Origin: Rhodopirellula sp. SM50
GTDB lineage: Bacteria; Planctomycetota; Planctomycetia; Pirellulales; Pirellulaceae
Length of the DNA stretch: 64,000 nt
Assembly (NCBI RefSeq): GCF_002289565.1
Contig: NZ_NTFY01000030.1
Coordinates: 62,001 to 126,000 of the forward strand
Direction of reading: 5' to 3'
Shown: piece after piece, positions 4,258-43,100 of the stretch
How positions within the stretch are numbered: the stretch's first letter is position 1
Layout: each line of letters opens with the position of its first letter
Notes under the pieces: generated by a model
Told to the model about the DNA's origin: nothing
Database searches by the model: none
The model's input: only the letters and a program-made list of their open reading frames with translations
Program-made: the position numbers and the translations under genes

Positions 4258-5489
4258 CTGGGCACGTCGTCATCGAGTCGCCTGGGCAATCGCACCACAA
4301 ACTCGGTGCCTTTTCCCGGTTCGCTCGTCACGTCAATGGTTCCGTTCATCGCTTCCACGATTCCCCGCGTGACGGACAAGCCGAGGCCCATACCCTGGCC
4401 GACCGTCTCTGTCTTGGTGCTGAAGAAAGGGTCAAAGATTCGTTCGATGTCTTCCTTCGCGATGCCGTGCCCATGATCGGTCACCGTCAAAATGGCGTGT
4501 CTCGCGTCCGCCCGAGCGTGGACGTTGACCTGAGCCCCCGCCTCGGAAGCTTGGATGGCATTGTGGATCAAGTTCAACAGCACTTGTTTCAATTCGCCTT
4601 CACGCAAGACAACTTCGTCGGAACCAAGGCTCGCGTTTTTCCCCGACGCTCCGACCGCAACCGGTGAACCGAACGAGGCCGAAACCTTCACGTTCGCTTT
4701 TCGTGACAGAGGAAGCGCCAGCGTGATGGCCACGTCCACTGCCTGTTTGAGCGAGAACGCCGACGCCCGCTGCTGGCTGGGCCGATAGAGTTGATACATC
4801 TGATGAATGATGCCGCTGATCCGTTCAATCTCGCCGTCGATCAAGTCGAGCTTGTCGTAATGTTTGACGTCGGCGGGGATGTGTCGTTTCAACAAAGCGA
4901 ACGCGTTGCGAATGCCGGCCAGCGGATTGTTGATTTCATGAGCCACACCTGCGGCCAGTTCACCGAGCGCCGCGAGCTTCTCCATCTTCAATCGATGCTG
5001 TTCCAACTCCGCCACCCGGGCGGTGCGTTCTTGAACGAGTTGTTCCAGATGCTCGTTGTGTAAACGCAACTGCTCACGCATCTGTCGCTTTTCGGAAATG
5101 TCTCGCACGCTCGCCCGAAAACCCAACGATCGCCCATCGGAGTCGGTCATCGGTTGCCACGACACGGCCACCCAGGACGTCGAGCCGTCGCGGTGCAGAC
5201 ACTCGAATTCAATGTTGTTTTCCGTACTGCCTCGAGCGGCTTCGGCAAAGTAACGCGCAATCCTACCGCGGTGCTCGGGGGTCATCAGCGGCAACGGGTA
5301 ATCCTTCATCGCCAAACACTCCGCCGGCGAGTAGCCCGTGAATCGCTCGACGGCCCGGTTCACCCATAAGACCTCGCCCTCACACGACAGCCAACTTTCC
5401 CAGTCGACGGTGCAGTCGGCGATCGAGCGAAAGAAATCGGCCGCAATGGGTTCGCTGCGTTTGGGAATGTCAGGTAATGATCGGCTCAT
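4254..5489 (-). CDS. PAS domain sensor histidine kinase, cytoplasmic
   Basis: Signal-transducing histidine kinase, 411 residues, without membrane segments. A PAS domain spans about 15-135 and ends in the PAC motif (GFRASVRDISEKRQ). A coiled coil follows at about 137-170. The phospho-acceptor is H184 in AHEINNPLAG. The ATPase domain has an N box (NLIHNAIQA, 306-314), G1 DHGHGI (338-343), F box (DPFF) and G2 GQGMGLGLS (364 onward). This H-box type is found in NtrB/AtoS-like kinases. No response regulator is adjacent, so it is an orphan whose partner must lie elsewhere. It converges on the sugar phosphatase with overlapping stops. Confidence 0.92.
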   Translation of the reverse strand: MSRSLPDIPKRSEPIAADFFRSIADCTVDWESWLSCEGEVLWVNRAVERFTGYSPAECLAMKDYPLPLMTPEHRGRIARYFAEAARGSTENNIEFECLHRDGSTSWVAVSWQPMTDSDGRSLGFRASVRDISEKRQMREQLRLHNEHLEQLVQERTARVAELEQHRLKMEKLAALGELAAGVAHEINNPLAGIRNAFALLKRHIPADVKHYDKLDLIDGEIERISGIIHQMYQLYRPSQQRASAFSLKQAVDVAITLALPLSRKANVKVSASFGSPVAVGASGKNASLGSDEVVLREGELKQVLLNLIHNAIQASEAGAQVNVHARADARHAILTVTDHGHGIAKEDIERIFDPFFSTKTETVGQGMGLGLSVTRGIVEAMNGTIDVTSEPGKGTEFVVRLPRRLDDDVPS

Positions 5490-5616
5490 TCCCTGATTTT
5501 AGCTGCGCCGAGACTGAGATCGCAGGGGGATCACGATCACCTGCCGCGCCAACTTAAGTTGTCGCCGCGGCAGCAGAGGATGGCAAGATAGCCGTTTTTC
5601 CTTGGGAAAAACGGAA

Positions 5617-5701
<85 letters not shown>

Positions 5702-6404
5702 GTCAAACTGGGAGCGGCAGTTTCCGAGAATCTGCGTCCCTCGTCAAGCTCCCCCCAACGTTTCCTCGCGAACTTCCTCAGTTACCGCTCCGGCGGTGTT
5801 CGCTTCGCTCGACCGCCGGCTAATTTCTGCCTTCCCCTCCCGGCAAGGCTGTGAAACATTTTTTAGCGGCAGGGCGCGAGCGGGCTGTCGATTTAAGCCC
5901 GCACGCGTAAGCAAGGGACAGCGCGGCGCCCCTCGCTTACGCGTCGGGCTGAGATGATCACGCTGATTTCGAAACATCGACTAAACCGACAGCCCGCGAG
6001 CCCTCCGGTGTGTTGGCCGAGATGAAGAACCGGAGGGCTCGCGCCCTGCCGCTAAAACCTCGAGAAACGCATGGGAAAAATGCTTCACAGCGTTGCCCTC
6101 CGGGATGCAAAGATGTGGGTAAACCTTTAAGCCACCGGCTCCTCTCGGTCGTGAAACTCGGGCGGTCCCGCGGTCTGCGTTGACACGGAGGCCGGCGGCT
6201 TTCTACTGTCCGGCCAGCGGCGCGAACGTTGTGCGCTCCTTGCCCCCCACCGCTTCGATTGACAGGATGTTGCTCGAACCCACGACCGCTCCGTTTGAAC
6301 GATCACAATCCGATGCCGATACGATCACGCGTCGCGCCGCATCGTGCGGTGCTGCGCCGGCTTCTGCGGTAGGAAAAATTGCACTTGTGGTTGCGGTCGC
6401 GGCG
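5702..6404. other. intergenic region with large palindromic repeat
   Basis: Between tRNA-Leu and the lipoprotein hydrolase the only clear structure is the repeat at 5863-6055. The flanks are GC-rich and hold open frames without recognisable protein. The stretch 6180-6404 is an open in-frame extension upstream of the hydrolase and is thought not to be translated, because the lipoprotein signal starts at 6405. Confidence 0.5.
5863..6055. repeat. family A palindromic repeat, long form
   Basis: A 193-base element bounded by a 19-base perfect inverted repeat (TTAGCGGCAGGGCGCGAGC at 5863 and its complement ending at 6055). Inside are nested inverted repeats: CGGGCTGTCG (5881) with CGACAGCCCG (5987), and ACGCGTAAGC (5903) with GCTTACGCGT (5935). 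Related copies are at 14781, 18041, 25670 and, rearranged, 50140-50317. No coding capacity is evident. Confidence 0.85.
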
Positions 6405-8414
6405 ATGTCGGTGGTCTCGCAACGCGTTTGCCGACTGCGGATTGGGCAACTGGTCGGGCTGATTCTGCTGCTCTGTCTTTCCGGCGGATGCTCGACCGCT
6501 CGGTATTTGACCGCTCGGTCGGTTCGCGACAATCCGTTGGCCGCCCAGCTACGGCTGATGACACGTCAAGGCCCGCAAATTAGCGAGCGGACGTGGAACA
6601 CGTTGCGACGCTATGGGCTTCGCGACGGCTATGACCAAGACGCCCACGTTTGTCTGAAAAAAATCCAAACCACGCTGCGGGACAACCGTGACCCCGAGCT
6701 GATTCATGCACTCGCCGAATTGTCTTACGTCGAAGGCAAGAAGGCGGAAACCAAGGGCGACCAGAGTGATGCCCTGGGCCATTTCGGCGTCGCGCTGACC
6801 AACAGCTACGACTATCTGTTCGACGAAGACCTGTCGGAAACGCGAAACCAATACGACCCACAGTTTCGCGCGACGTGTGATCTGTACAACGAATCGCTGG
6901 AAGACACGCTCCGCCTGCTGTGCGAAGAACATCACATCAAACCGGGCCAAACCTACCGGGTCAAAACACCCGACCGCGAGTTCGTTATTCAGACTCAACT
7001 GCGCGGAAACTGGAAACCCGACGAATTTGATCATTACGAATTCGTCAGTGATTACGAGATCGCGACGTTACGGAGTAAGCACACGACGTTCGGATTGGGC
7101 GTTCCAATGATCGCGGTGCGGAAGAGCAACGAAAAAAACGATCCTCGCGAGAATTATTACCCCGACGAACTCAGTTACAGCGTCACTGCGATGATGCGCT
7201 GCGCCAAACCGAAAGATGGTGAATACGGCGACGCCAACACTTGTGTTCTCGAGTTTTTCGATCCGCTGACGGCCAACCAGGTCAAATTGGCCAACCACTG
7301 GGTGCCGTTGGAAACCGATCTGACCACGCCGCTGGCTTTCTTTCTCGACACGCCGCGATTTCGCGAGCGAAACCACGAAACCGAAGGACTGCTGAACCCC
7401 GCCGATGCCGCTAAAAACCGCGGCTTGTACATGCTGGAACCGTACGATCCCAACCGGATCCCGGTGCTGATGGTGCACGGCCTGTGGTCCAGCCCCCGGA
7501 CGTGGATGGACATGTTCAACGACCTCCGCAGCTTTCCAGAGATCCGCCAGCGCTACCAGTTCTGGTTCTATCTGTATCCGTCCGGCCAGCCGTTTTGGTT
7601 GAGTGCGATGCAAATGCGTTCGGACCTCCACGATCTGCGCCAGACGTTTGACCCGACACACAACGACGCCCCGATGGACCAGATGGTCTTGGTCGGTCAC
7701 AGTATGGGCGGGCTGATCAGTCGGATGCAGACGATCGATAGCGGTGATGATTTCTGGAGAATCGTCAGCGACCAACCGCAAGAGAAACTGCGCGGCGAAG
7801 CCGAAGAACGCGACAAGCTGGTCAGCACGCTGTTCTTCAAGCCCAATCAATCGGTCAGCCGGGTGATCACCATCGGAACGCCCCACCGCGGCAGCAAGTT
7901 CGCCAATGAATTGACCCGCTGGTTGGCCCGAAAGTTTATCAAGCTGCCGACGATGAACGTCACCATGGGCGAGAACCTGGTCAAAAACAATCCCAACCTG
8001 TTTCGTGATACAGAACTGTTGACGATGGCCAACGCGATCGATTCGCTGGCCCCCGACTCGCCGATCTTCCCCGTCATGCAGCGGGCGAAATACTCACCGA
8101 CGGTCAAGTACCACAACATCATCGGGATCCTGCAAGACCCCACGCTGCTGCAAAAGAAAGCCGGCCGTGGCGATGGCATTGTCGCCTATGAAAGTGCCAC
8201 GATGGAAGACACCGAAAGCGAACTGATCGTCGATGCCGAGCACACCAAGATCCACATGACCGGTCAGGCGATCTTTGAAGTCCGCCGGATCCTGCTGGAA
8301 CACCTCCGAGAAATCGATTCGGCCGACCGCGTTGCGACGATGCCGGAAAACGCAGTCGAGTCTGCAGCACCGGACGAATCAACTACGGTTCGGAAAGTTG
8401 GCTTCGAGCAGTGA
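6405..8414 (+). CDS. lipoprotein alpha/beta hydrolase
   Basis: Predicted membrane-anchored esterase/lipase-like hydrolase, about 669 residues from ATG 6405. A lipoprotein signal is clear: a hydrophobic run then LCLSGGCS with the lipobox cysteine at residue 29. The middle ~300 residues are not recognised. The alpha/beta hydrolase core starts at PVLMVHGLWSSPRTW and has the nucleophile elbow GHSMGG (Ser near 433), with TIGTPHRGS afterwards as in triacylglycerol lipases. GDGIVAYESA and EHTKIH near the end probably supply the acid and histidine. The open frame extends to TTG 6180, but those 75 residues would bury the signal peptide. A run of heptamers begins right after the stop codon. Confidence 0.82.
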   Translation: MSVVSQRVCRLRIGQLVGLILLLCLSGGCSTARYLTARSVRDNPLAAQLRLMTRQGPQISERTWNTLRRYGLRDGYDQDAHVCLKKIQTTLRDNRDPELIHALAELSYVEGKKAETKGDQSDALGHFGVALTNSYDYLFDEDLSETRNQYDPQFRATCDLYNESLEDTLRLLCEEHHIKPGQTYRVKTPDREFVIQTQLRGNWKPDEFDHYEFVSDYEIATLRSKHTTFGLGVPMIAVRKSNEKNDPRENYYPDELSYSVTAMMRCAKPKDGEYGDANTCVLEFFDPLTANQVKLANHWVPLETDLTTPLAFFLDTPRFRERNHETEGLLNPADAAKNRGLYMLEPYDPNRIPVLMVHGLWSSPRTWMDMFNDLRSFPEIRQRYQFWFYLYPSGQPFWLSAMQMRSDLHDLRQTFDPTHNDAPMDQMVLVGHSMGGLISRMQTIDSGDDFWRIVSDQPQEKLRGEAEERDKLVSTLFFKPNQSVSRVITIGTPHRGSKFANELTRWLARKFIKLPTMNVTMGENLVKNNPNLFRDTELLTMANAIDSLAPDSPIFPVMQRAKYSPTVKYHNIIGILQDPTLLQKKAGRGDGIVAYESATMEDTESELIVDAEHTKIHMTGQAIFEVRRILLEHLREIDSADRVATMPENAVESAAPDESTTVRKVGFEQ

Positions 8415-18472: not shown

Positions 18473-19498
18473 TCACCGTCCGGCTTCGATCAGCGGTTTG
18501 GCTCCCTGGTCGATCAGCATCTCGGCGACGTGTCGCCCCAACGCGATGGCCGTGGTTTGCCAATCGTCCGATGCCAGGTCCAGCGTCGTGTCGGCTTCGG
18601 ATTCCAAGCAGACTTTGCCATCGAGCGACAACACGCGGGCGACCAAGTGCAGGACCGACACGGTTTGCCCGTCGGCCTCAACTTCGGAAACCGTTCCCAA
18701 GGCGGCGATCGGTGCTAAACAGCCGCCGTGAAGTTGCGACAACAACGTCCGTTCGGCCAGCGTGCAGGCGGCCGATCGGGGAACATTGATTTGTGAGACC
18801 ACCGCGACGGCATCGGTATCATCGCCACGCACTTCGATCGCCAAGGCGCCTTGGCCGGGAGCGGGCAGCATGCATTCCAGTGGCAGCTGGACGCGGGGCA
18901 GATCATGCATCTCCAGCCGCTCGATTCCCGCCGCGGCCAGCACGATCGCGTCGTACTCACCGTCCCGCATCTTTTGCAGCCGTGTCTGAACGTTACCGCG
19001 AATCGGTTGGACGTCCAGGTCGGGGCGGAGCTTCAGCAATTGTGCCGCGCGGCGGCGGCTGCCGGTGCCGATCCGGGCGGCGTGGGGCAACGCGTCCAGT
19101 TCCAACCCCCTCGGCGAGACCAGGCAATCGGCCATCGTTTCTCGCGCCGGCGAGGCGACCATTCGAAGGCTCGGGTGGGCTTCGGTCGGCAGATCCTTCA
19201 TCGAATGCACCGCCACATCCCCCTCATCGTCCAACAGCGCCTGCTGGATTCGTTTGGTGAATACGCCGACGGAGCGTTTGCCGTCGATCGGCCGCATGTC
19301 CACATCGCCGCTGCTGACCATCGGCACAATCCGCGGCGCAACGGTGTGCTTGGCCAACAGTTGGGCGACGTGCTGCGCCTGCCAAAGGGCCAGTGGGCTT
19401 TCTCGGGTCGCAATCCGAAGGACGCGGGGATCCGACTGACCCGCCGGCTGATCGGAGGGCTGGCGGTCGGATAGTGACGATTGATCCGGTGCTGGCAA
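18473..19498 (-). CDS. hemC: hydroxymethylbilane synthase (porphobilinogen deaminase)
   Basis: Polymerises four porphobilinogens into hydroxymethylbilane in tetrapyrrole synthesis, in the cytoplasm. Family motifs are present in order: IATRESPLALWQAQHV, DVAVHSMKDLPTE, IGTGSRRRAAQLL, IRGNVQTRLQKM and LPAPGQGALAIEVR. The dipyrromethane cofactor cysteine is in LHGGCLAPIAA. The open frame runs up to 19657 and would overlap the divergent kinase gene. TTG 19498 is taken as a plausible start because conserved sequence begins about 24 residues later, but no ribosome site decides it. No other hem genes are adjacent. Confidence 0.93.
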   Translation of the reverse strand: MPAPDQSSLSDRQPSDQPAGQSDPRVLRIATRESPLALWQAQHVAQLLAKHTVAPRIVPMVSSGDVDMRPIDGKRSVGVFTKRIQQALLDDEGDVAVHSMKDLPTEAHPSLRMVASPARETMADCLVSPRGLELDALPHAARIGTGSRRRAAQLLKLRPDLDVQPIRGNVQTRLQKMRDGEYDAIVLAAAGIERLEMHDLPRVQLPLECMLPAPGQGALAIEVRGDDTDAVAVVSQINVPRSAACTLAERTLLSQLHGGCLAPIAALGTVSEVEADGQTVSVLHLVARVLSLDGKVCLESEADTTLDLASDDWQTTAIALGRHVAEMLIDQGAKPLIEAGR

Positions 19499-19624
19499 GA
19501 TAATGGGCCGAGTTCGTGTGAAGGCTAACGGACGAGTCGGGCGACAACCTACCGACTTCGTTTTCCGGGTCTTAGAGTAACGTGCCAGATCCGAGTCCGA
19601 CAACTCCACCGGGATTGCGATATA

Positions 19625-22444
19625 TTGGGTGGGGGTGATCGGGTGGCCGGATCTCACTCGACCTTCACCTCGCCCCCCCTCCCCACCGCGACGTCCATCA
19701 CTTTGTCCCGATCCCTCTCCGATAGCGATGATTTGACGCCCGATTCGCTCTCCAGCGAGTTCGAAGGTCGCGTCGTCGATTCGGCAGACCTAGGAAGTGT
19801 GCCGACGTATAGCGAAGCGGTCGGCGCCGATCCCGCGACCTGCGAGATCGGCGACCTTTCCGAACCGGAAATCGAACTCAGCGTGGCCTCCGATCAGGCG
19901 ATCGAAGCGGCCAAAGCGACCGCCGTCAGCATCCCGGGAAAACGCTCGGCGGACTCCAAAGGCAAGGTCCCCAAGCAGATCGGCGAGTATCGCATCACGG
20001 GCCTGATCGGTTCGGGCGGCATGGGGCAGGTGTTTTCGGCCGAACATGTGCGGATGCAACGCAAGGTCGCGCTGAAAGTGTTGCGGAGCGATCGAATCTC
20101 TGACGAAGCGTCGGTGGAGCGTTTTTATGACGAAGTCCGCGCCGCCTCTCGCGTCATGCACCCGAATATTGTCACCGCCTTTGATGCCGGCGAATTTGGC
20201 GGGATCCATTATTTGGTGATGGAATACGTCGACGGATTGACGTTGACGAAACTGGTTTCCAAAAACGGTCCCCTGTCACCGGGAATGGCTGCCGCGATCG
20301 TGCGCCAAGCCGCCTTGGGATTGTTGCACGCCCATCGCGCCGGCATCGTGCATCGCGACGTCAAACCCGGCAACCTGATCCGCGCCGTCGACGGAACGAT
20401 CAAGGTGTTGGATCTGGGGCTAGCCCAAATCAGCAACGTGCTGTGGTCCGAAGACGGCCGTGAATTGGGCCGTGTGCAGGACCCCGATTCCCATCACAAA
20501 CGCAAGGGACGCCTGATCGGGACGTTGGCCTACATGTCCCCCGAACAGCTCGAATCGCCCGACGAAGCGGATCCCCGAAGCGACATTTATTCTCTCGGGG
20601 CGGTGCTGTTCTTTCTGCTGACCGCCAGACCGCCGTTTCAGGGGGAATACCTGGACCAGGTCTATGGCCATCGTCACGGCGAGATCCCCGATCTGATGCA
20701 ACTGCGCAGTGACGTCGACCTGGGGCTGTCCAACCTGCTGCGTCGGATGATGGCCAAACGGCTCAGCGAACGCTACGCGTCCTTGGACGAGGTCGTGGAA
20801 GACCTGGGCGCCTATGCCGAGGAGTCGCACAGTCCTGCCTGGTTGGCGGAGTTCGTCAATCGACAATCCAGCGTCAACGATTCCACGATGTCCGGCGGCT
20901 CCACCGCGATCGCCAATCAACCCGTGTTCGGAATCGACATGGGGATGTCTTACGCCGCGGCGGCGGAATCTGTGCAAGGGGTCGGCATCCACAACCTAGT
21001 CGCCGGCGGCGATGACCAGCCGTTGTTCCGGATGGTGATCGCCAACGACCAGGGGCGACTGCTGTTTGACATGGACGCCAACCAGATGCGTCGGGTCGCG
21101 CCGAAGCATGTCGTGCACTGCCTGCCGATGTACATCGGCAAAGACATGGTCCGCCGCGAGATTGCCGGAAACCATTGTCCGCCGGAAGTTCTGCTGGCGC
21201 TGGCGATCCGACGAATCGTCTCCAACGCCTGGCCGGGACGCGCCATGCCCAAGTTGACTTCGATGGTGGTGCCGGCGTGTTACGACCAATTTCATCGACG
21301 CAGCATCAAGCAAGCCTGTCGCATCGCGGGGCTCGAATCCGTTCGTCTGGTCGACCGAAACGTCGCAGCGATCCAGTCGCTGCTGTTGGACATCGATGGC
21401 GTGGTGTCCGGCCAGAATAAACCGATCGACATCAATTCGGCCGAAACGATGCTGTTCATCGGTTTGTCGGGACAAGCCACCGAGGTCGCTCTGGTGCAGC
21501 GCGACGGCATGCAGCTGAAACAACTGGCCACCGCAGGCCATTGGCATACCAGCATGCTGAGCTGGCAACACCGCTTGGTCACGCTCGCCGCCGACGGGTT
21601 TCGGCAACGTCATGGTTTCGATCCGACCGAGCACACGATCCAAGCGTCGCGGTTGCAGATGGCGTGCGAGCATGCGATGAATTCGTTGCTGATGCTGTCG
21701 GAGGTGACGATCAGCATCGAAAAAGACGATCGCCCCTATTCGATCACCGTGGCGCGAAACACGTGGCTGGAACGCTGTGCCGATCTGATTCACGGAATCC
21801 GCCGCGACATGCATGCGGTCTGCCAGCAAGCGGGCGTGCATCCCAAGAAGATTGATTCGGCGGTGATCCACGGGCCGCTGCTGCGGATCGATGCCTTGCA
21901 GACCCGATTGTTCAAAAAACTATCGCCCGACTTGGATGTCCGTGTCGTCGATCACAGTGACATCGCGCGCGGCGCGGCCGCCTGCTTGGCCGCCGAATTG
22001 CCCCAACGCAGTGACATGCTGTTGCCGCCGCGATGCGTTTCCAGCCAGACGATCGGAATCGTGATCGAAGACAGTCGCGGACGGCGGCGGATTTTGCCGA
22101 TCATCCCCCGCGGTGAAAAACTGCCGGCACGCACCAACCGAAAACTGACGATCGCCAAAAATCGATTTTCCATGACCCTGTCGGTCGTCGAATCCTCCGG
22201 CGTGCACGGCGACAAATGGCACTCGCTGGGACGCTTCGAATTCCAGGTCGACAAGGATTCCAACAATCAACTCAAACGAACACGCTCCATCGGTTTCGAA
22301 TTGAACGTCGATGGACTGTTGACCGTTCGAGCCCAAACGCCGGGGACGCCTGAAAGCAAGCGTCTGGCCGTCATTCCCGAACCGCTGTTGGACCCCAAGG
22401 ACGAACCCGACTGGGCCCGCTGGGTGGCCGGTTTGGATCTGTGA
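19625..22444 (+). CDS. Ser/Thr protein kinase fused to Hsp70-like module
   Basis: A 939-residue fusion. Residues ~1-115 are low-complexity. A Hanks-type kinase follows: glycine loop LIGSGGMGQVF, VALKVL lysine, HRDVKPGN at 243-250, and a DLG at 263-265 in place of DFG. From F435 the protein changes to an Hsp70/actin-like ATPase. FGIDMGMSYAAAA matches phosphate loop 1. VVPACYDQFHRRSIKQACR plus IAGLESVRLVDRNVAAIQ match the Hsp70 subdomain. ETMLFIGLSGQATEVALVQ corresponds to phosphate loop 2, and AVIHGPLLRIDALQ to the adenosine motif. TIGIVIEDSRGRRRILPIIP onward resembles the substrate-binding beta domain. The start is TTG 19625 or GTG 19643. No membrane segment, so cytoplasmic. Confidence 0.88.
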   Translation: MGGGDRVAGSHSTFTSPPLPTATSITLSRSLSDSDDLTPDSLSSEFEGRVVDSADLGSVPTYSEAVGADPATCEIGDLSEPEIELSVASDQAIEAAKATAVSIPGKRSADSKGKVPKQIGEYRITGLIGSGGMGQVFSAEHVRMQRKVALKVLRSDRISDEASVERFYDEVRAASRVMHPNIVTAFDAGEFGGIHYLVMEYVDGLTLTKLVSKNGPLSPGMAAAIVRQAALGLLHAHRAGIVHRDVKPGNLIRAVDGTIKVLDLGLAQISNVLWSEDGRELGRVQDPDSHHKRKGRLIGTLAYMSPEQLESPDEADPRSDIYSLGAVLFFLLTARPPFQGEYLDQVYGHRHGEIPDLMQLRSDVDLGLSNLLRRMMAKRLSERYASLDEVVEDLGAYAEESHSPAWLAEFVNRQSSVNDSTMSGGSTAIANQPVFGIDMGMSYAAAAESVQGVGIHNLVAGGDDQPLFRMVIANDQGRLLFDMDANQMRRVAPKHVVHCLPMYIGKDMVRREIAGNHCPPEVLLALAIRRIVSNAWPGRAMPKLTSMVVPACYDQFHRRSIKQACRIAGLESVRLVDRNVAAIQSLLLDIDGVVSGQNKPIDINSAETMLFIGLSGQATEVALVQRDGMQLKQLATAGHWHTSMLSWQHRLVTLAADGFRQRHGFDPTEHTIQASRLQMACEHAMNSLLMLSEVTISIEKDDRPYSITVARNTWLERCADLIHGIRRDMHAVCQQAGVHPKKIDSAVIHGPLLRIDALQTRLFKKLSPDLDVRVVDHSDIARGAAACLAAELPQRSDMLLPPRCVSSQTIGIVIEDSRGRRRILPIIPRGEKLPARTNRKLTIAKNRFSMTLSVVESSGVHGDKWHSLGRFEFQVDKDSNNQLKRTRSIGFELNVDGLLTVRAQTPGTPESKRLAVIPEPLLDPKDEPDWARWVAGLDL

Positions 22445-24316: not shown

Positions 24317-24662
24317 GTCGGGAAAACAACCGTGCGGGTAGTCTGTTTCGGTTCGAGGGACCGACAAAGTAAACGGCATTGGTTGACCGACGACAAGCCA
24401 CCTTCACGCCGCTCGGTGTTCCCAGCCGCGTTTTGTGAACAATCGGAAGGACCGGAACAATCGCCAACGTTGGCAAACCCGTGCCCGATTCACTGCAATT
24501 GCAGTTTCGCCGACCCGGGATCCGATGCAGTCCTTACGGCATCCGCGAATGTCGATTGCCAGCTGCTCACGTTCCTCTCTCCGGCGATCGCCCACCCGCG
24601 GCGACCACCGGCGCTCGTCCGCGGTGGCGAAATCGCACCGATTCAACCTACCCAAAATTCTC

Positions 24663-25568
24663 ATGTCTGAATTCGTCGCCCCATCAGTTGATCCGGATCT
24701 CGCTGACGTCAAGAAAACTCGCAAAACGAGCCGGAGGACCGATGCGGCGCAGTCACCGCTGGAGACCTACCTGCGTGAGATCAACGAGACGGCATTGCTG
24801 ACGGCCAAAGAAGAACTGGAACTGGCCGCCCTGATCGAACAGGGCGATGTCGAAGCTCGCGATCGAATGGTCCGTGCGAATTTGCGTCTGGTCGTCAACA
24901 TCTCCCGCGGCTATACCGGCAAAGGCCTCAGCCTGCAGGACCTGATCGAAGAAGGAAACCTGGGTCTGTTGCGAGCCGTTGAGGGGTTTGACCCCACCGT
25001 CGGAACCCGCTTCAGCACTTACGCCAGTTACTGGATCAAACAATCGATCAAACGGGCGTTGATCAACAGCGCCAAAACGATTCGGATCCCGGCCTACATG
25101 GTCGAATTGCTCAGCAAGTGGCGTCGTGCGACGGCCCGGTTGAGCGAAGAACTCGGCCGCACCCCGACCAACGAAGAGGTCGCTCGGGTGTTGGGACTGC
25201 CGAAGAAGAAACTGCCGATCATCCGCAAAGCGATCCGCATCAGCAACAGCACGCCGCAAAGCGACCAGAGCGAATCGGGGTGGTCACTCGGCGAGATGGT
25301 CATGGACGAGCGTCTGAAAGCTCCCGACGAGATGATGCTCGATCACGACATCTTGCGTCACGCCATGGAACTGCTCGGCGATCTGGAAGAGCGCGAAGCG
25401 ATGGTCTTGAAACTCCGTTTCGGACTCGACGGAACGGAACCGAAAACGCTCAAAGAAATCGGCGCCGAACTCGGCCTGACCCGTGAACGCGTCCGACAGA
25501 TCGAAACCGAAGCCCTGCGTCGGCTCGCCGACGGACTGACCGATCCCCGCGAACGGTTCGGGATCTAA
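24663..25568 (+). CDS. RNA polymerase sigma-70 family factor (RpoD/RpoS-like)
   Basis: A sigma factor of about 301 residues with regions 1.2 to 4 and no long region 1.1, so a group 2-type factor rather than the main housekeeping one. Region 1.2 is SPLETYLREINETALLTAKEE. Region 2 includes NLRLVVNISRGYTGKGLSLQ and RFSTYASYWIKQSIKRAL, which melts and reads the -10. Region 4 is LKEIGAELGLTRERVRQIE, the -35 helix-turn-helix. The frame opens at 24435, but ATG 24663 (MSEFVAPSVDPD) is where plausible protein begins. It is divergent from the lactonase gene. Confidence 0.92.
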   Translation: MSEFVAPSVDPDLADVKKTRKTSRRTDAAQSPLETYLREINETALLTAKEELELAALIEQGDVEARDRMVRANLRLVVNISRGYTGKGLSLQDLIEEGNLGLLRAVEGFDPTVGTRFSTYASYWIKQSIKRALINSAKTIRIPAYMVELLSKWRRATARLSEELGRTPTNEEVARVLGLPKKKLPIIRKAIRISNSTPQSDQSESGWSLGEMVMDERLKAPDEMMLDHDILRHAMELLGDLEEREAMVLKLRFGLDGTEPKTLKEIGAELGLTRERVRQIETEALRRLADGLTDPRERFGI

Positions 25569-33608: not shown

Positions 33609-36600
33609 TTGACCTTCAACAAGCAACAGCACATCGACCACATCAGTGTCAATATTTTCGACCTGATTGATTCGATTTGCGGCAATTTTCGGCGGCAATG
33701 GAAGGCGGGGAAGCGACCGAGAATCGAGGAGCTTCTGCGGAAAGTCCCCGAGGATGCCAGCGAGACGCTTTTTCGCAATCTGTTGGCTGTTGAAATCCGA
33801 TACCGGGAACGCACCGGGGACCTTCCTTCGGCAGCAGATTATCTGGCCCGTTTCCCCGACTTTAAACGTGTGATCGGCGACGCATTTCACTATTCGGCAG
33901 CCGTTTCGATCGAGGAACAGATCAGCACCTCGATCGAAGCCTCAGGAGACATGCCCGATACGGTCGATTCGCCGGCGGCCAACCGGATCGGGGACTATGA
34001 ATTGCTGCGCGAACTCGGCCGCGGCGGCTTTGGCGTGGTCTTCGAGGCGGTGCAGATCCAGCAGAGAAACCGAGTCGCGCTCAAGACTCTGCCCACCGGC
34101 AGCGACGGTCAAGTGGTCAACCCGGAACGGCTGTCTCGATTTCGCAGGGAGTTTCGAAGCCTGTCCGAAATCAATCACCCCAACCTGGTCGGAATGCAGA
34201 CGCTGGAAGTCGACGGCGGCCAGTGGTTTTTCACGATGGATTTGGTCGAGGGCGTTGATTTCCTTTCCTACGTCAGACCCGATGGAACGCTTGACGAGGG
34301 TCGCCTGCGGCATTCGATCAAGCAGCTGGTGCACGGCATTATCGCCTTGCATGACCGACAAGTCCTGCACCGCGACCTGAAACCATCCAACGTGATGGTC
34401 GATCGCGACGGCCGGGTCGTGATTCTCGATTTTGGGTTGATCGCTGAACTGGAGCAACGCACCGATGAGACCGCGAGCGCGCATTCGCGTCACTTCGCCG
34501 GAACACCACGCTATGCTGCGCCGGAGCAAGCGTTGGGGCAACGCTCAACGGCGACCGACTGGTACGCGTTCGGGACAATGCTCTACGAGGCGCTGACCGG
34601 TGAGACGCCGTTCCGGGGAACCCAGGCCGAATTGCTGATCCGCAAGCAGAACGTTGACGCGCCTCCGCTTTCCGGCCGGCTGGACCTGCCGCTGGACCTG
34701 GCGAACCTTGTCGATGGTTTGCTGCACCGCGACCCGCGGAAGCGGCCCGAAACCGAGGCGATTGCGATCGCCCTATCAATCGAATTCGACTCGACGAGCC
34801 ACGGGAGCAGTGACTCGCAGCTGGAGCCATCAGAAAACGATTGGGCGGAGGGTAAGTCGGAGCCATCCTTGATCGGCAGGGGACAGCAATTGACTCAGCT
34901 GGAATCGGCCAAAACAGAATTGCTGGAGCGGCGAACGCCGCTGGCGGTGTGGCTGACGGGGCTTAGTGGTGAAGGAAAATCGACGCTGGCCGAGAGCTTT
35001 CTGCGGCCATTGAGACGCGGCCAGGCAATGCTAGTCCTGTCGGGGCGTTGCTACGACCGAGAAATGGTTCCGTTCAAAGTCATCGACAGTCAAATCGATT
35101 CGCTCGTCAAATACCTGAGTTCCCTGTCGGAACCCGAGCTCGAGAGTCTTCTGCCACGGGACATCGAGAAACTCGCACAGCTGTTTCCGATTCTTCGACG
35201 TGTGGAGCCCATCGATCAACGCTGCCGCCGAGCAAAAAGGGGAAGCGATGAGCAGCAACTCCGCAATCTGGCGTTCGCCGCGCTGAAGGATCTTCTGCAT
35301 GCGATCGGACACTCCAGGCCGATCGTGATGTTCGTCGATGACCTTCAGTGGGGAGATCGCGACAGCGCTGAAATACTCGGTAAGTTACTCGCACCACCGA
35401 TGCCGCCTGCGGTGCTCTTGCTGGGATCGTTCCGCAGCGACGAGATGGTTGACAGCCCATTCTTGAGGGAATGGAACAGCGTCATGGATGCGCAACCCAA
35501 CCTGATCTCGATTCGCCAAATCCCGATCGCGGCGCTGACTCGCGCTGAATGCACCGAGATTCTTCGGCGTCGCTTCAAGGAAGCCTACGCGATCCTCGAG
35601 CCGCAAGTGGATGAACTCTATGCGAATTGCAGGGGAAACCCGTACCTGCTGGAACAACTGATCGAAGGCTTCAATCCTGAGACGGGCGAGATCCGTTCGC
35701 GCTCGTTGTCCGAGATCATCGGCAATCGACTGGCACGTTGCCCGGAGGGTGCTTCCGAACTGCTCCATGCCATCGCCGTTGGGGGCAAGGCCGTCTCGCC
35801 GCAGGAAGTGATGCGAGTCGCCGGGTACACGAACAGCGGATTGGCGACGTTGACGCACATGCGGAGCGAGCGGCTCGTCCGTCTGGTCGACTCCCAACGG
35901 GAACAACTCGTCGACACCTATCACGACAAAATCCGGGAGCTCACCCTGGAGTCGATGGGCGAAGATCGGCGGATCGGCCTACACCGGACTTACGCGGAAA
36001 CGATTGAAACGCAATCTCGAGAATCGGAAAGTCAAAAACAGCACAGCGATCGCCCCCCGGTCCATTCTCGTGCGTTCGATCTGGCTCACCATTTCGAACA
36101 AGCACAGGACCCCCGAGCGTTCCAATACCTGATGCAGGCCGGCCAAGCAGCACTCGAAACCTATGCGATGGATGCCGCCGCAGAATACCTGCGTCGCGCG
36201 GAGCGTCTGCGGCCCGCTAACACAAGCGTCGAAAGCGATTACCGATTGCAGATGATGCTGGGGAGGGCGTTGTTCGGTTCAAACTCAGTCGAATCCAGTC
36301 TCGACCACTTGCATCAGGCAGCGACTCTCGCAACGTCACCCGTGGACCAAGCCCAAGCACGGTATCTGCTTGCCGAGGCACGGTGGCGACTGGGGGAATA
36401 TCAAGAGTCATTGAACGTCAGTCGTCTTGCCTTTGCCGCACTGGGAGAAAAACTGCCACGATCCATGCTGGGAGGTCTGCTGAGAACGAATGCTGCTCTG
36501 ATTCGGTTTCACCTGATGCCGGCCGAGCTACCGTTGACTTCGCAGGAATCCCGACGCAAGTTGGCCACAGCCGCTGAGCTTTACGTCAAATACGGTCACA

Positions 36601-40167: not shown

Positions 40168-43100
40168 ATGCACGACGGTGACATTGATCCCAAAGCTTCC
40201 ATCAGCCGCAGTTCCCCGTCGCCACCGTCGGGTAACCCGTCGGAGCAAATCGGTGCCGGATCATCCCTGTTTGAGACACTCCAGTTGCTCGACGAGGCGT
40301 TTCCGAGGAGATCGGAAATGGCCGACAATACCTCACTACACAATGCGCTTGCGATCTTCGACGCCGGTGAAGGGGCATTTCGACTGGGGCGATTCACTCT
40401 GCTCCATCGCGTCGGCGAGGGGGCCTTTTCTTCCGTTTACCTGGCCCAAGACGAACTGCTGCGGCGGCGTGTCGCGCTCAAGATTCCCAAACCGCATGTG
40501 CTGCTGTCGGACGCTTTGCTGAACCGTTTTTTGGGCGAAGCTCAAGCGGTGTCACGGTTGCACCATCCGCACATCGTGCCGATTTTGGACGCCAAGGCAG
40601 ACGGGCTGGAATACTTCATCGCCCGCGAGTATTGCGACGGTCCGAGTCTGCGCGAGTGGCTCAACGGACGAAAAACGCCGATGGATCCGGGCACCGCCAC
40701 ACGCATCGTCGCGCAGCTCGCCGATGCCGTTCATCATGCCAACCAGCAGGGCATCCTGCATCGCGACATCAAACCGTCGAATATTTTGCTGCAGAGCAGC
40801 GAACAAGCCGATGACACGTTTCCCTACGTGGTGCAGTTGTCGGACTTCGGATTGGCCAAAGTTTTTGACGCGCAAACAGAATTTGAAACCGCCGTGGGAT
40901 CGATGCTGGGGACGCCGCGATACATGGCTCCCGAACAGCTTCGCGGCAGCAAGGACGTGGGACCTCCTGCGGAAGTCTACTCGCTGGGGGTCACGCTGTA
41001 CGAATTGCTCACCCTGACTGTCCCGTTTCAATCAACGGGCCAAGCCGAATTGATCTCCGAGGTCATGAACGCCGTGCCGGCGTCGGTTCGCCATCGAAAT
41101 CCCGCACTCCCGCGTGATCTAGAAGCAATCACGATGCGGTGTCTCGAAAAGTCGCCGGAAAGCCGCTACCCGAATCCCAAGGAGCTGGCGGAAGATCTGA
41201 AGCGCTACGAAAACGCTGAACCGATTCGTGCGCGGCGTCTTGGCCCCGGGCGTCGAACCTGGCTTTGGGCGAAACGTAATCCACCACAAGCCGCTCTGGT
41301 GACGACGATCGTCCTCGCCTCCATGCTTGTCTACGCGATCCTGATCAGTCGTGATGCGCGGGTTCGCAGCTTGAATGCGTCGCTGAGCCAGTCGCTCGCC
41401 CAGTCCGAAGAAAACCTTCGCGTCACGCAGCAGCTCGCGTACGCCTCGGACATGCGGCTGGCCGGACAGGCCGCTGCCGGCGGCGACATGCGGCAGCTCA
41501 GGTTGCTGGTGGACCGAAATCGGGTTCGTCCTGGTGCGGATCACTTGCATGGTTTTGAGTATCACTTTTTGAAAGGGATGGTGGACATCAGGCATCGTGA
41601 GTTGCACGATAACGCCGGGGCCGTCGCCTGCGTTCGTTATTCGCCCGACGGGCGTCGGGTTGCCTCCGGCGGTGACGATGGTGTTTTGCGAATTTATGAC
41701 GCCCAGACCCTTCAACAGCGGCTCAACCAACCGCTGCCATTCGGCCGACTCAACGGCCTCGCATTCACTCCCCAAGGCGACCGTATCGCGGTTGCAACGG
41801 GCGGTGGTGTCGTTTCCGTTTGCGACGTGGAGACCGGAAACGAGGCCGTCCGTATTACCGCCCACAACGGGCCGGCGACGGACGTGGTCTTCTCGGCCGA
41901 TGGGAAGTGGATCATTTCGTCGGGTGATGACGCCGACCCGGTCATTCGTGTTTGGGATGCTGCAACCGGTGATCGCGTCAGCGAAATCGAGGGGAATGAA
42001 AAACGGATCGACTGCCTGGCGGTCTCCAAGAGCGGCCGGTTTCTCGCATCGGTCGGTCGCGATCGATCGTTGCGACGTTGGGACTTGGACGCAGCGGGAG
42101 CGTACAACGCCCACCCAGTCATTCAGCGTTTTTACCGATTCACCAGTGTCTCCTTCTCGCCGGACGAACGATGGGTGATCGCCGGGTCGTTGACGCAAGG
42201 AGCGTTCGGATTCCCTGTCGATGGGCAGGACGAACTGTTCGTCTCGCCCCACCTGGATGCCGTCGAAGCGGTTGATTTTTCGGACGATGGCCAGTGGGGC
42301 GCTGACGCCGACCGTGCCGGAACCGTGCGTCTTTGGCCGATCCGACCTTCCACAAGTCCCCCGTGGAAGGATGCCGGACGCGATCCGATCGGTTGGTGTG
42401 CCCACGAAGAAAAGATCACGTCACTAGGCTTTTCACCCGACGGCAAAGTAGTGGTGACAGCATCGGTTGCCGGTCGGATTCGCCTTTGGAACATCGCCGA
42501 CCTGACTTCAACGCGAGCGATCCCCTTCGGCCATCGCACGGCGTTCACTTCGGGGGCCCCGATCGACGAGAAGACGTTCGTGACGGTGGAAGTCCCCCAT
42601 GATGCAATTGTCACAAACGGATCCTCGGATCGATCCATGTTTCGCGTTTGGGATTATGCATCGCTGAAGGAAAAACAGCTGCGGGCCGCGGATGGGCATG
42701 TTTCAGCCATCGCGACCAGTCCGGATGGTCGCGACCTTTGGGCCGGATCGCATTCCGGATCGATTCGCAATCTCAGCACGGCAGACCTGTCAGAGCAATT
42801 TCGATTCGACGGCATCAATGCACCGATCGAAGCGTTAAAGATTTCGGGCGATGGGCAGCTTCTCTGCGTGCACACCGATCAGCGACTCGACTGGTTTCAG
42901 TTGCCATCGTTCGACCCGGCAGCGCGACTGCCGACTCGACGGTGCAACGCGATCGCATTGTCAGGTGATGGGCGGTGGCTTGCGATCGCGACAAAACCCG
43001 AAGACACGATCGAAATCTGGGACTTGAAACGCCGCAGCCTGACACACACGCTTCCGCGTTCCAGGGGACCGGTGAAGAGCATGCGTTTCAGTCCCGATGA

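Follow-up and report, generated by a model that had tools for sequence, protein, structure and literature searches.

A Ser/Thr kinase joined in one reading frame to a lidless Hsp70-like part with replaced ATP-site residues in Planctomycetota

The fusion gene and its domains

The stretch analysed here (the window) comprises 64,000 nucleotides of Rhodopirellula sp. SM50 (assembly GCF_002289565.1, contig NZ_NTFY01000030.1, positions 62,001 to 126,000), whose genome is 9.8 Mb. It carries a gene in which a Hanks-type Ser/Thr kinase and an Hsp70-like part form a single open reading frame (ORF) on the forward strand (19625-22444), open over 939 codons. This frame, with HRDVKPGN at residue 243 and DLG at residue 263, had been described in an earlier reading of the sequence alone (the sequence-only reading), and its coordinates and motifs were confirmed. 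The gene was divided as follows.

19625..22444, + strand: kinase/pseudo-Hsp70 fusion ORF, 939 aa as listed; true start probably TTG 19703 or later (~913 aa)
19703..19705, + strand: likelier start codon, an in-frame TTG common to the window and relatives L077, L078 and L079, as read from the alignment
19988..20779, + strand: Hanks-type Ser/Thr kinase domain, residues 122-385, with Gly loop, VALK, HRD, DLG and SPE
20819..20914, + strand: variable linker, residues 399-430; predicted local distance difference test score (pLDDT) <50 at 407-430
20915..22018, + strand: pseudo nucleotide-binding domain (NBD), residues 431-798; Hsp70 fold, ATP-site residues replaced
22037..22369, + strand: beta subdomain of the substrate-binding domain (SBD-beta-like), residues 805-915; no alpha lid after it

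Within 19625-19703, a C run carries a 2-base indel between the window and two relatives that are 97-98% identical (L077 and L078), and this segment therefore has no shared frame with them. Judged from the alignment, translation probably starts later than 19625, with TTG 19703 as the candidate.

Both halves were matched by profile searches, in agreement with the proposed joining of a kinase to an Hsp70-like part. Pfam Pkinase covered residues 122-385 (E 4.7e-43, 147.9 bits against a curated cut-off of 31.7), and Pfam HSP70 covered residues 507-917 (E 2.7e-28, 99 bits against 20.6). When solved structures were searched with phmmer, DnaK 2v7y matched residues 434-916 (E 1e-20), and PknB and StkP stood at the top of the matches to the kinase half. 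The nearest named proteins to the Hsp70 part were from planctomycete TBK1r (98%) and Stieleria sedimenti (97%). The linker at residues 399-430 had a mean identity of 35.6% between the window and 40 relatives.

Conservation of the single frame

Among 149 sampled genomes of the family, 39, the source genome included, matched the Hsp70 part at E <= 1e-60. The kinase and the Hsp70 part shared one ORF in 37 of the 38 related family loci. A scan of GTDB contigs gave 43 named planctomycete loci, with identity down to ~24%, and one ORF was present in 42 of them; L080, L089 and L093 were cut by contig ends, and the frame of L111, from a metagenome-assembled genome, was without the kinase N-lobe. A search with the distant member L115 added 14 further genomes, all 14 with both parts in one frame. 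Among these loci, L145 (the same gene as L111) had no N-lobe, and some ran past the end of the sequence retrieved. In total, the fusion was found in at least 53 of the 149 family genomes and in 15 of 68 genera, and it was a single frame in 52 of the 53. No unfused pseudo-Hsp70 occurred among the frames read at the 38 related, the 43 named and the distant loci.

The ratios of nonsynonymous to synonymous substitution (dN/dS) between the window and L077, L078 and L079 were 0-0.04 for the kinase, 0.07-0.13 for the NBD and 0.02-0.11 for the SBD, indicating that both halves are under purifying selection relative to these three near relatives. A frameshift, which the sequence-only reading had named as grounds for refutation, and an assembly join are both ruled out by the single-frame conservation across relatives. 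Because related genera keep the combination, the fusion is probably a real signalling protein and not an accident.

Loss of ATP-site residues and of the lid

Residue counts were taken from one MAFFT alignment, in which 98 fused rows were reduced to 69 non-redundant members under 98% identity and compared with 16 stand-alone Hsp70s and 6 DnaKs, all from Planctomycetota. DnaK residue numbers were set by motif on the DnaK of the source genome (L169). The broken Rhodopirellula maiorica gene (L075/L113) was left out before counting, as were the rows with an intact D-L-G-G-G-T, namely 11 unfused Hsp70s and L159, which is the G185 fusion shown below as L136. The remaining 18 rows of the distant-member search were fused and already without D-L-G-G-G-T before this filter.

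The available text of PMC12406271 assigns contact with and sensing of the gamma-phosphate to T11 and K70 of DnaK, the holding of Mg2+ waters to D8, E171 and D194, and the ribose to E267 and K270. T11, K70, E171, D194 and K270 were found in 0 of the 69 fused members, while all five were kept in 16/16 stand-alone Hsp70s and 6/6 DnaKs. Since these five residues are replaced throughout the fused members and kept in the other two groups, the C-terminal half is, by its residues, a pseudo-Hsp70 that retains the Hsp70 fold and has lost the ATP chemistry. In the window, T11, K70, E171, D194 and T199 correspond to M, P, R, G and A. T199 was kept in 3/69, and G198 and G342 in 1/69 each. Thus, the divergence of the phosphate loops seen in the sequence-only reading holds and extends to a family-wide replacement of ATP-site residues. 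R151, E267, G225 and the residues of A..GAA were invariant or nearly so in the fused family. The protein probably does not bind ATP, to judge from these positions, and a classical ATP-driven cycle is unlikely.

The position of E171 was basic in all 69 fused members (Arg 53, Lys 16) and was paired with an acid at the position of D8 in every case (D-R 49, D-K 9, E-K 7, E-R 4). We would guess from this pairing that the two residues form a salt bridge.

The Hsp70 module had been called complete, which did not hold, as the nucleotide-site residues are replaced family-wide and the alpha lid (SBD-alpha) is absent. The protein ends 24 residues past SBD-beta, with one short helix at model residues 495-508. 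The hydrophobic inter-domain linker is lost in the fused family. Of the surface that meets the J-domain and the linker, N170 was kept in 1/69, T173 in 0/69 and D393 in 0/69, the window having D, V and C, respectively. Against the NCBIfam DnaK equivalog the fusion scored 68.8 bits (cut-off 822.55), which is a weak separator, as two stand-alone Hsp70s with intact ATP motifs (L128, 360.3; L130, 355.5) missed the same cut-off.

Predicted structure and docking face

A structure of residues 430-939 was predicted with AlphaFold2 from 43 sequences (pLDDT 91.2; predicted template modelling score, pTM, 0.91). The model has the NBD and SBD-beta fold of DnaK/BiP, in line with the Hsp70/actin fold expected after residue 435. 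BiP-ATP2 was the top match in Foldseek (E 1.6e-36). In VIA-align the top match was restraining-state DnaK (Z 39.2, 2.3 A, 478 residues), and the other leading rows were ATP-bound Hsp70s of the full-length type or AMPylated BiP. ADP-state DnaK 2v7y matched the model over 345 residues, covering the NBD only. We take the restraining-state DnaK and the AMPylated forms matched here to be docked. Because AMPylated BiP in apo or ADP form was among the best matches, the likeness is to a docked arrangement and not to the ATP state. The model thus suggests that the NBD and SBD-beta would stay docked without nucleotide. A longer model (residues 104-939) reached a pLDDT of 82 and a pTM of 0.74 with an unsure linker, and no kinase-Hsp70 contacts were drawn from it.

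According to the available text of PMC4595643, the docking face of DnaK comprises Y145, F146, D148, R151, K155, R167, I168, D326, K414 and D481, and P143 and L484 are also allosteric. R151 was kept in 69/69 fused members and P143 in 67/69. Three positions were invariant in all 69 and yet unlike DnaK: F146 was always Tyr, D148 always Gln and I168 always Leu. Positions 167 and 481 changed together (R-N 36, R-D 16, Q-S 16, Q-N 1), which may reflect a single event between the two clades described below. The mean modal frequency over all columns was 0.497; it was 0.66 at the 18 nucleotide-site positions and 0.775 at 14 docking-face positions. Invariant columns cluster most densely in the segment Y-D-Q..R, which is a rewritten part of the DnaK docking face. 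The 43 named GTDB loci had been found by a pattern inside this YDQ segment, and its invariance there is partly selected; the segment was also invariant in the window and in the 37 unbroken loci retrieved with the whole protein as query.

The kinase half

The window kinase has the Gly loop, the Lys of VALK, HRD, DLG and SPE. Among the 69 non-redundant fused relatives, HRD and an APE-type motif ([AS/P]PEQ, or xPEQ) were present in all, and the Gly loop and VAxK in 64, the other five being frames without an N-lobe. The replacement of DFG by DLG noted earlier is true of the window and is typical, with DLG in 51, DFG in 17 and DMG in 1 of the relatives. A dead kinase on account of DLG was therefore rejected, this being the commonest form in the family and the other catalytic motifs being intact. 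By its motifs, the kinase should be active.

No Pfam match to PASTA repeats was obtained in the fusion protein, and the NCBIfam PASTA-kinase profile gave 266.5 bits, below its cut-off of 450. No clear membrane helix was found by a crude test, the top 19-residue Kyte-Doolittle mean being 1.16 and lying inside the kinase domain. The source genome gave 116 matches to the fusion protein, a count that includes the protein itself and split pieces, and almost all of them fall on the kinase part. A role in defence was considered through PADLOC, but the 25 matches listed, out of 35, all fall on the kinase part and are uninformative.

Some variation was observed around the kinase. Tandem pairs of kinase domains precede the pseudo-Hsp70 in L118 (5958-9512), L144, L119 and probably L146. 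Of the 38 rows in the family set, 15 carry a short motif in the low-complexity N-terminal region (window 19835-19852 and relatives), [PA]T[CRQ][DE], often followed by a hydrophobic residue (for example ATCEIG, PTRDFG and PTQDMR); as a guess, it might serve as a phospho-Thr docking site. Two further Hanks-type kinase regions lie in the window at ~33909-34727 and 40366-41211 (+), in frames of 1447 and 1171 aa.

Origin of the fusion and a second kinase-Hsp70 fusion

Quick-type trees were built for both halves; as these are unrooted, a group here means one side of a branch. The 33 fused rows formed such a group in the Hsp70 tree (support 100, quick type), apart from the 16 stand-alone Hsp70s, the 6 DnaKs and the G185 fusion. 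In the kinase tree, which carried long-branch warnings, the 31 partner kinases formed one side of a branch (99, quick type), apart from 16 other kinases of the source genome. The first (extra) kinase of L118 and the G185 kinase fell outside this clade, both on long branches. The same deep split into two groups appeared in both trees. Because each half forms one clade with the same deep split, the simplest history would be a single old fusion whose Hsp70 part had lost its ATP chemistry by the time of the common ancestor.

Across the phylum, profile A1 matched 245 of 294 genomes at E <= 1e-20, and most of these matches are presumably ordinary Hsp70s. Among the 11 matched regions that were read, one held another kinase-Hsp70 fusion:

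L136 (genome G185), 5387-7906: second kinase-Hsp70 fusion, 840 aa; Hsp70 ATP motifs intact, HGD in place of HRD

Like the window gene, it has an N-terminal kinase and a C-terminal Hsp70 without a canonical lid. It differs in its intact ATP motifs and in the placement of both halves outside the family in the trees (for the kinase, with the long-branch warning), and on its sequence it is separate from the ATP-dead family. When it was used as a query against the 294 phylum genomes, 36 had a match at E <= 1e-80; apart from the fusion itself, no listed match covers the kinase part. A further Hsp70 frame of 588 aa lies ~3 kb downstream of it.

Interpretation and alternatives

We lean, by a modest margin over even chances, toward a kinase with intact motifs that is steered by a docked pseudo-Hsp70 acting, independently of nucleotide, as an interaction platform. 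The protein would combine a Ser/Thr kinase of the Hanks type, whose motifs point to activity, with a C-terminal lidless Hsp70 devoid of ATP chemistry. The pseudo-Hsp70 would no longer cycle, and its NBD and SBD-beta would probably remain docked as in the ATP state even with no nucleotide. Serving as a fixed platform for protein binding, the pseudo-Hsp70 could bring the kinase to a substrate or alter kinase activity on binding. As a guess, the binding partner would most plausibly belong to the Hsp70 network or be one of the clients of Hsp70. Of the pseudo-chaperone scaffold suggested earlier, the first part stands through the loss of the ATP-site residues in 69/69, and the scaffold part follows from this interpretation only.

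Several points weigh against this proposal. The nucleotide pocket is partly kept: an acid at D8 (D 58, E 11), E267 in 69/69, G197 in 67/69, G341 in 65/69, R345 in 39/69 and T12 in 12/69, so that nucleotide binding may still be possible on these residues. The docking face is itself only partly kept, with an identity to DnaK of 0.362, and the nucleotide-site positions also exceed the background in modal frequency. The AMPylated BiP matches include apo and ADP crystals, and the docked pose may stem from a bias of AlphaFold2 toward docking. A J-domain partner is disfavoured by the loss of the hydrophobic linker and of the N170/T173/D393 surface. Concerning partners in the genome, no constant neighbour naming a target was found among the 25 neighbour clusters listed, and a stand-alone Hsp70 of the L128 type (see below) was unmatched at E <= 1e-85 in the fusion-bearing genera g12, g14, g38 and g66. 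Lastly, the fusion gene of R. maiorica SM1 (draft assembly) is split over two frames.

The alternative that survives best, though we consider it rather unlikely, is an ATP-independent client sensor, in which SBD-beta binds exposed hydrophobic segments and its occupancy turns the kinase on, making a one-protein sensor of unfolded proteins. Sensing of misfolded protein by the chaperone part, as suggested in the sequence-only reading, may occur, though hardly through the classical ATP-driven cycle. SBD-beta is predicted to be folded and is better conserved than the NBD, with mean identities of 49.2% vs 43.0% between the window and 40 relatives, and G482 and the VVES Glu are invariant in 69/69. 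However, there is no lid and the peptide pocket is changed, F426 being Leu in 56 and I472 Arg in 37 of the 69 and V436 variable, in a region where the alignment is less sure.

Somewhat less probable still is a kinase aimed at the Hsp70 machine, in which the pseudo-Hsp70, docked like Hsp110, partners an Hsp70 (DnaK or another one) and the attached kinase phosphorylates this partner or its clients. Hsp110 is a docked partner of Hsp70 in nucleotide exchange, and the titles of 3c7n and 3d2e agree with this pairing. The model resembles docked Hsp70 and, less closely, the Hsp70 relative Hsp110/Sse1, which was also retrieved by the fold search (2qxl, Z 33.5, 4.3 A), and the source genome holds a canonical DnaK-like gene (L169). 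The fold match is weaker than that to DnaK, and Sse1 has no kinase and retains ATP binding. Against this reading, no recurrent Hsp70 gene appeared among the 25 neighbour clusters listed. The Hsp110 hallmark is a long insert in SBD-beta together with an extended lid, and the window has an SBD-beta of ~110 residues and no lid after it.

A further reading, a kinase attached to a functional Hsp70 chaperone whose ATP cycle links folding to phosphorylation, would fit the Hsp70 fold and the pocket residues that are kept, but it is very improbable given the loss of T11, K70, E171, D194, K270 and D393 in all 69 members and the absence of the lid. An artefact or decaying gene, either two genes joined by error or a pseudogene, could draw only on the two frames of R. 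maiorica SM1 and the frame of L111 without a kinase N-lobe, and is refuted in practice by the single frame in 52 of 53 family genomes and the purifying selection.

More broadly, and tentatively, the fused proteins may represent a kinase family under a frozen Hsp70, in which the NBD-SBD-beta docking machinery, stripped of ATP, was rewired so that binding at this module, and not nucleotide, switches or directs phosphorylation. On this reading, kinases would have been paired with lidless Hsp70s at least twice in Planctomycetota.

Comparison with known systems

Compared with canonical DnaK/BiP, with which it shares the NBD and SBD-beta fold (478 residues at 2.3 A) and the Pfam HSP70 match, the fusion has no lid, has lost T11, K70, E171, D194, K270, D393 and the hydrophobic linker, and has a kinase attached. 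PknB and StkP are the best solved matches to the kinase domain, whereas the fusion carries a C-terminal pseudo-Hsp70 and gave no PASTA match. Stand-alone planctomycete Hsp70s without a canonical lid (L128; L130 of G314) share the NBD and SBD-beta but keep their ATP motifs and carry no fused kinase; their lidless status was deduced from profile coverage and length. The available text of PMC7159879 describes conflict-system Hsp70s recruited to signalling and defence contexts beside GTPases and tubulins, with one theme mainly in actinobacteria and firmicutes, and in that text no kinase-Hsp70 fusion is described.

No description of an ATP-dead Hsp70 that is joined to a kinase with intact motifs and co-evolves with it was found in the literature searched, subscription papers and the Pfam/InterPro architecture tables being outside the search. 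In a survey of planctomycete kinases (PMC11032199), the main text contains neither 'Hsp70' nor 'DnaK'; the architecture may be listed in its supplements or in the Pfam/InterPro tables. Both folds are already known, and what is new is their combination with a family-wide dead ATPase. The fusion is a naturally occurring case in which to test whether docking between Hsp70 domains can signal in the absence of nucleotide, and it may connect protein quality control with Ser/Thr phosphorylation in the kinase-rich planctomycetes. Pseudo-enzymes that act as regulators are well known among kinases and GTPases.

Neighbouring genes and other Hsp70 genes

Two further features were considered for their relation to the fusion:

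18473..19657, - strand: hemC (porphobilinogen deaminase), divergent neighbour; its true start is probably below 19657
L128, 6742-9210 (contig C116 of the source genome): stand-alone Hsp70, ATPase motifs intact, no canonical lid, long low-complexity tail

hemC lies head-to-head upstream of the fusion in 26 of the 38 related family loci; no other neighbour in the 25 listed clusters was frequent. hemC was not found near the nine distant loci compared, some of which are on short contigs, and it is probably a bystander. A PP2C phosphatase gene is convergent downstream in L058, L060 and L061 (checked with Pfam in L061 only). Function could not be read from these neighbours, as both associations are weak and neither is constant.

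L128 is the best Hsp70 match in the source genome after the fusion protein itself. Its type was matched at E <= 1e-85 in 81 of the 149 family genomes, and the fusion-bearing genera without a match at this threshold speak against it as an obligate partner. By eye, vWA-type and histidine-kinase-like proteins are encoded near L128. In the window, a sigma-70 family factor (regions 1.2 to 4) is encoded at 24435-25565 (+), ~2 kb downstream of the fusion, and similar sigma-70 genes occur near five other loci at varying distance.

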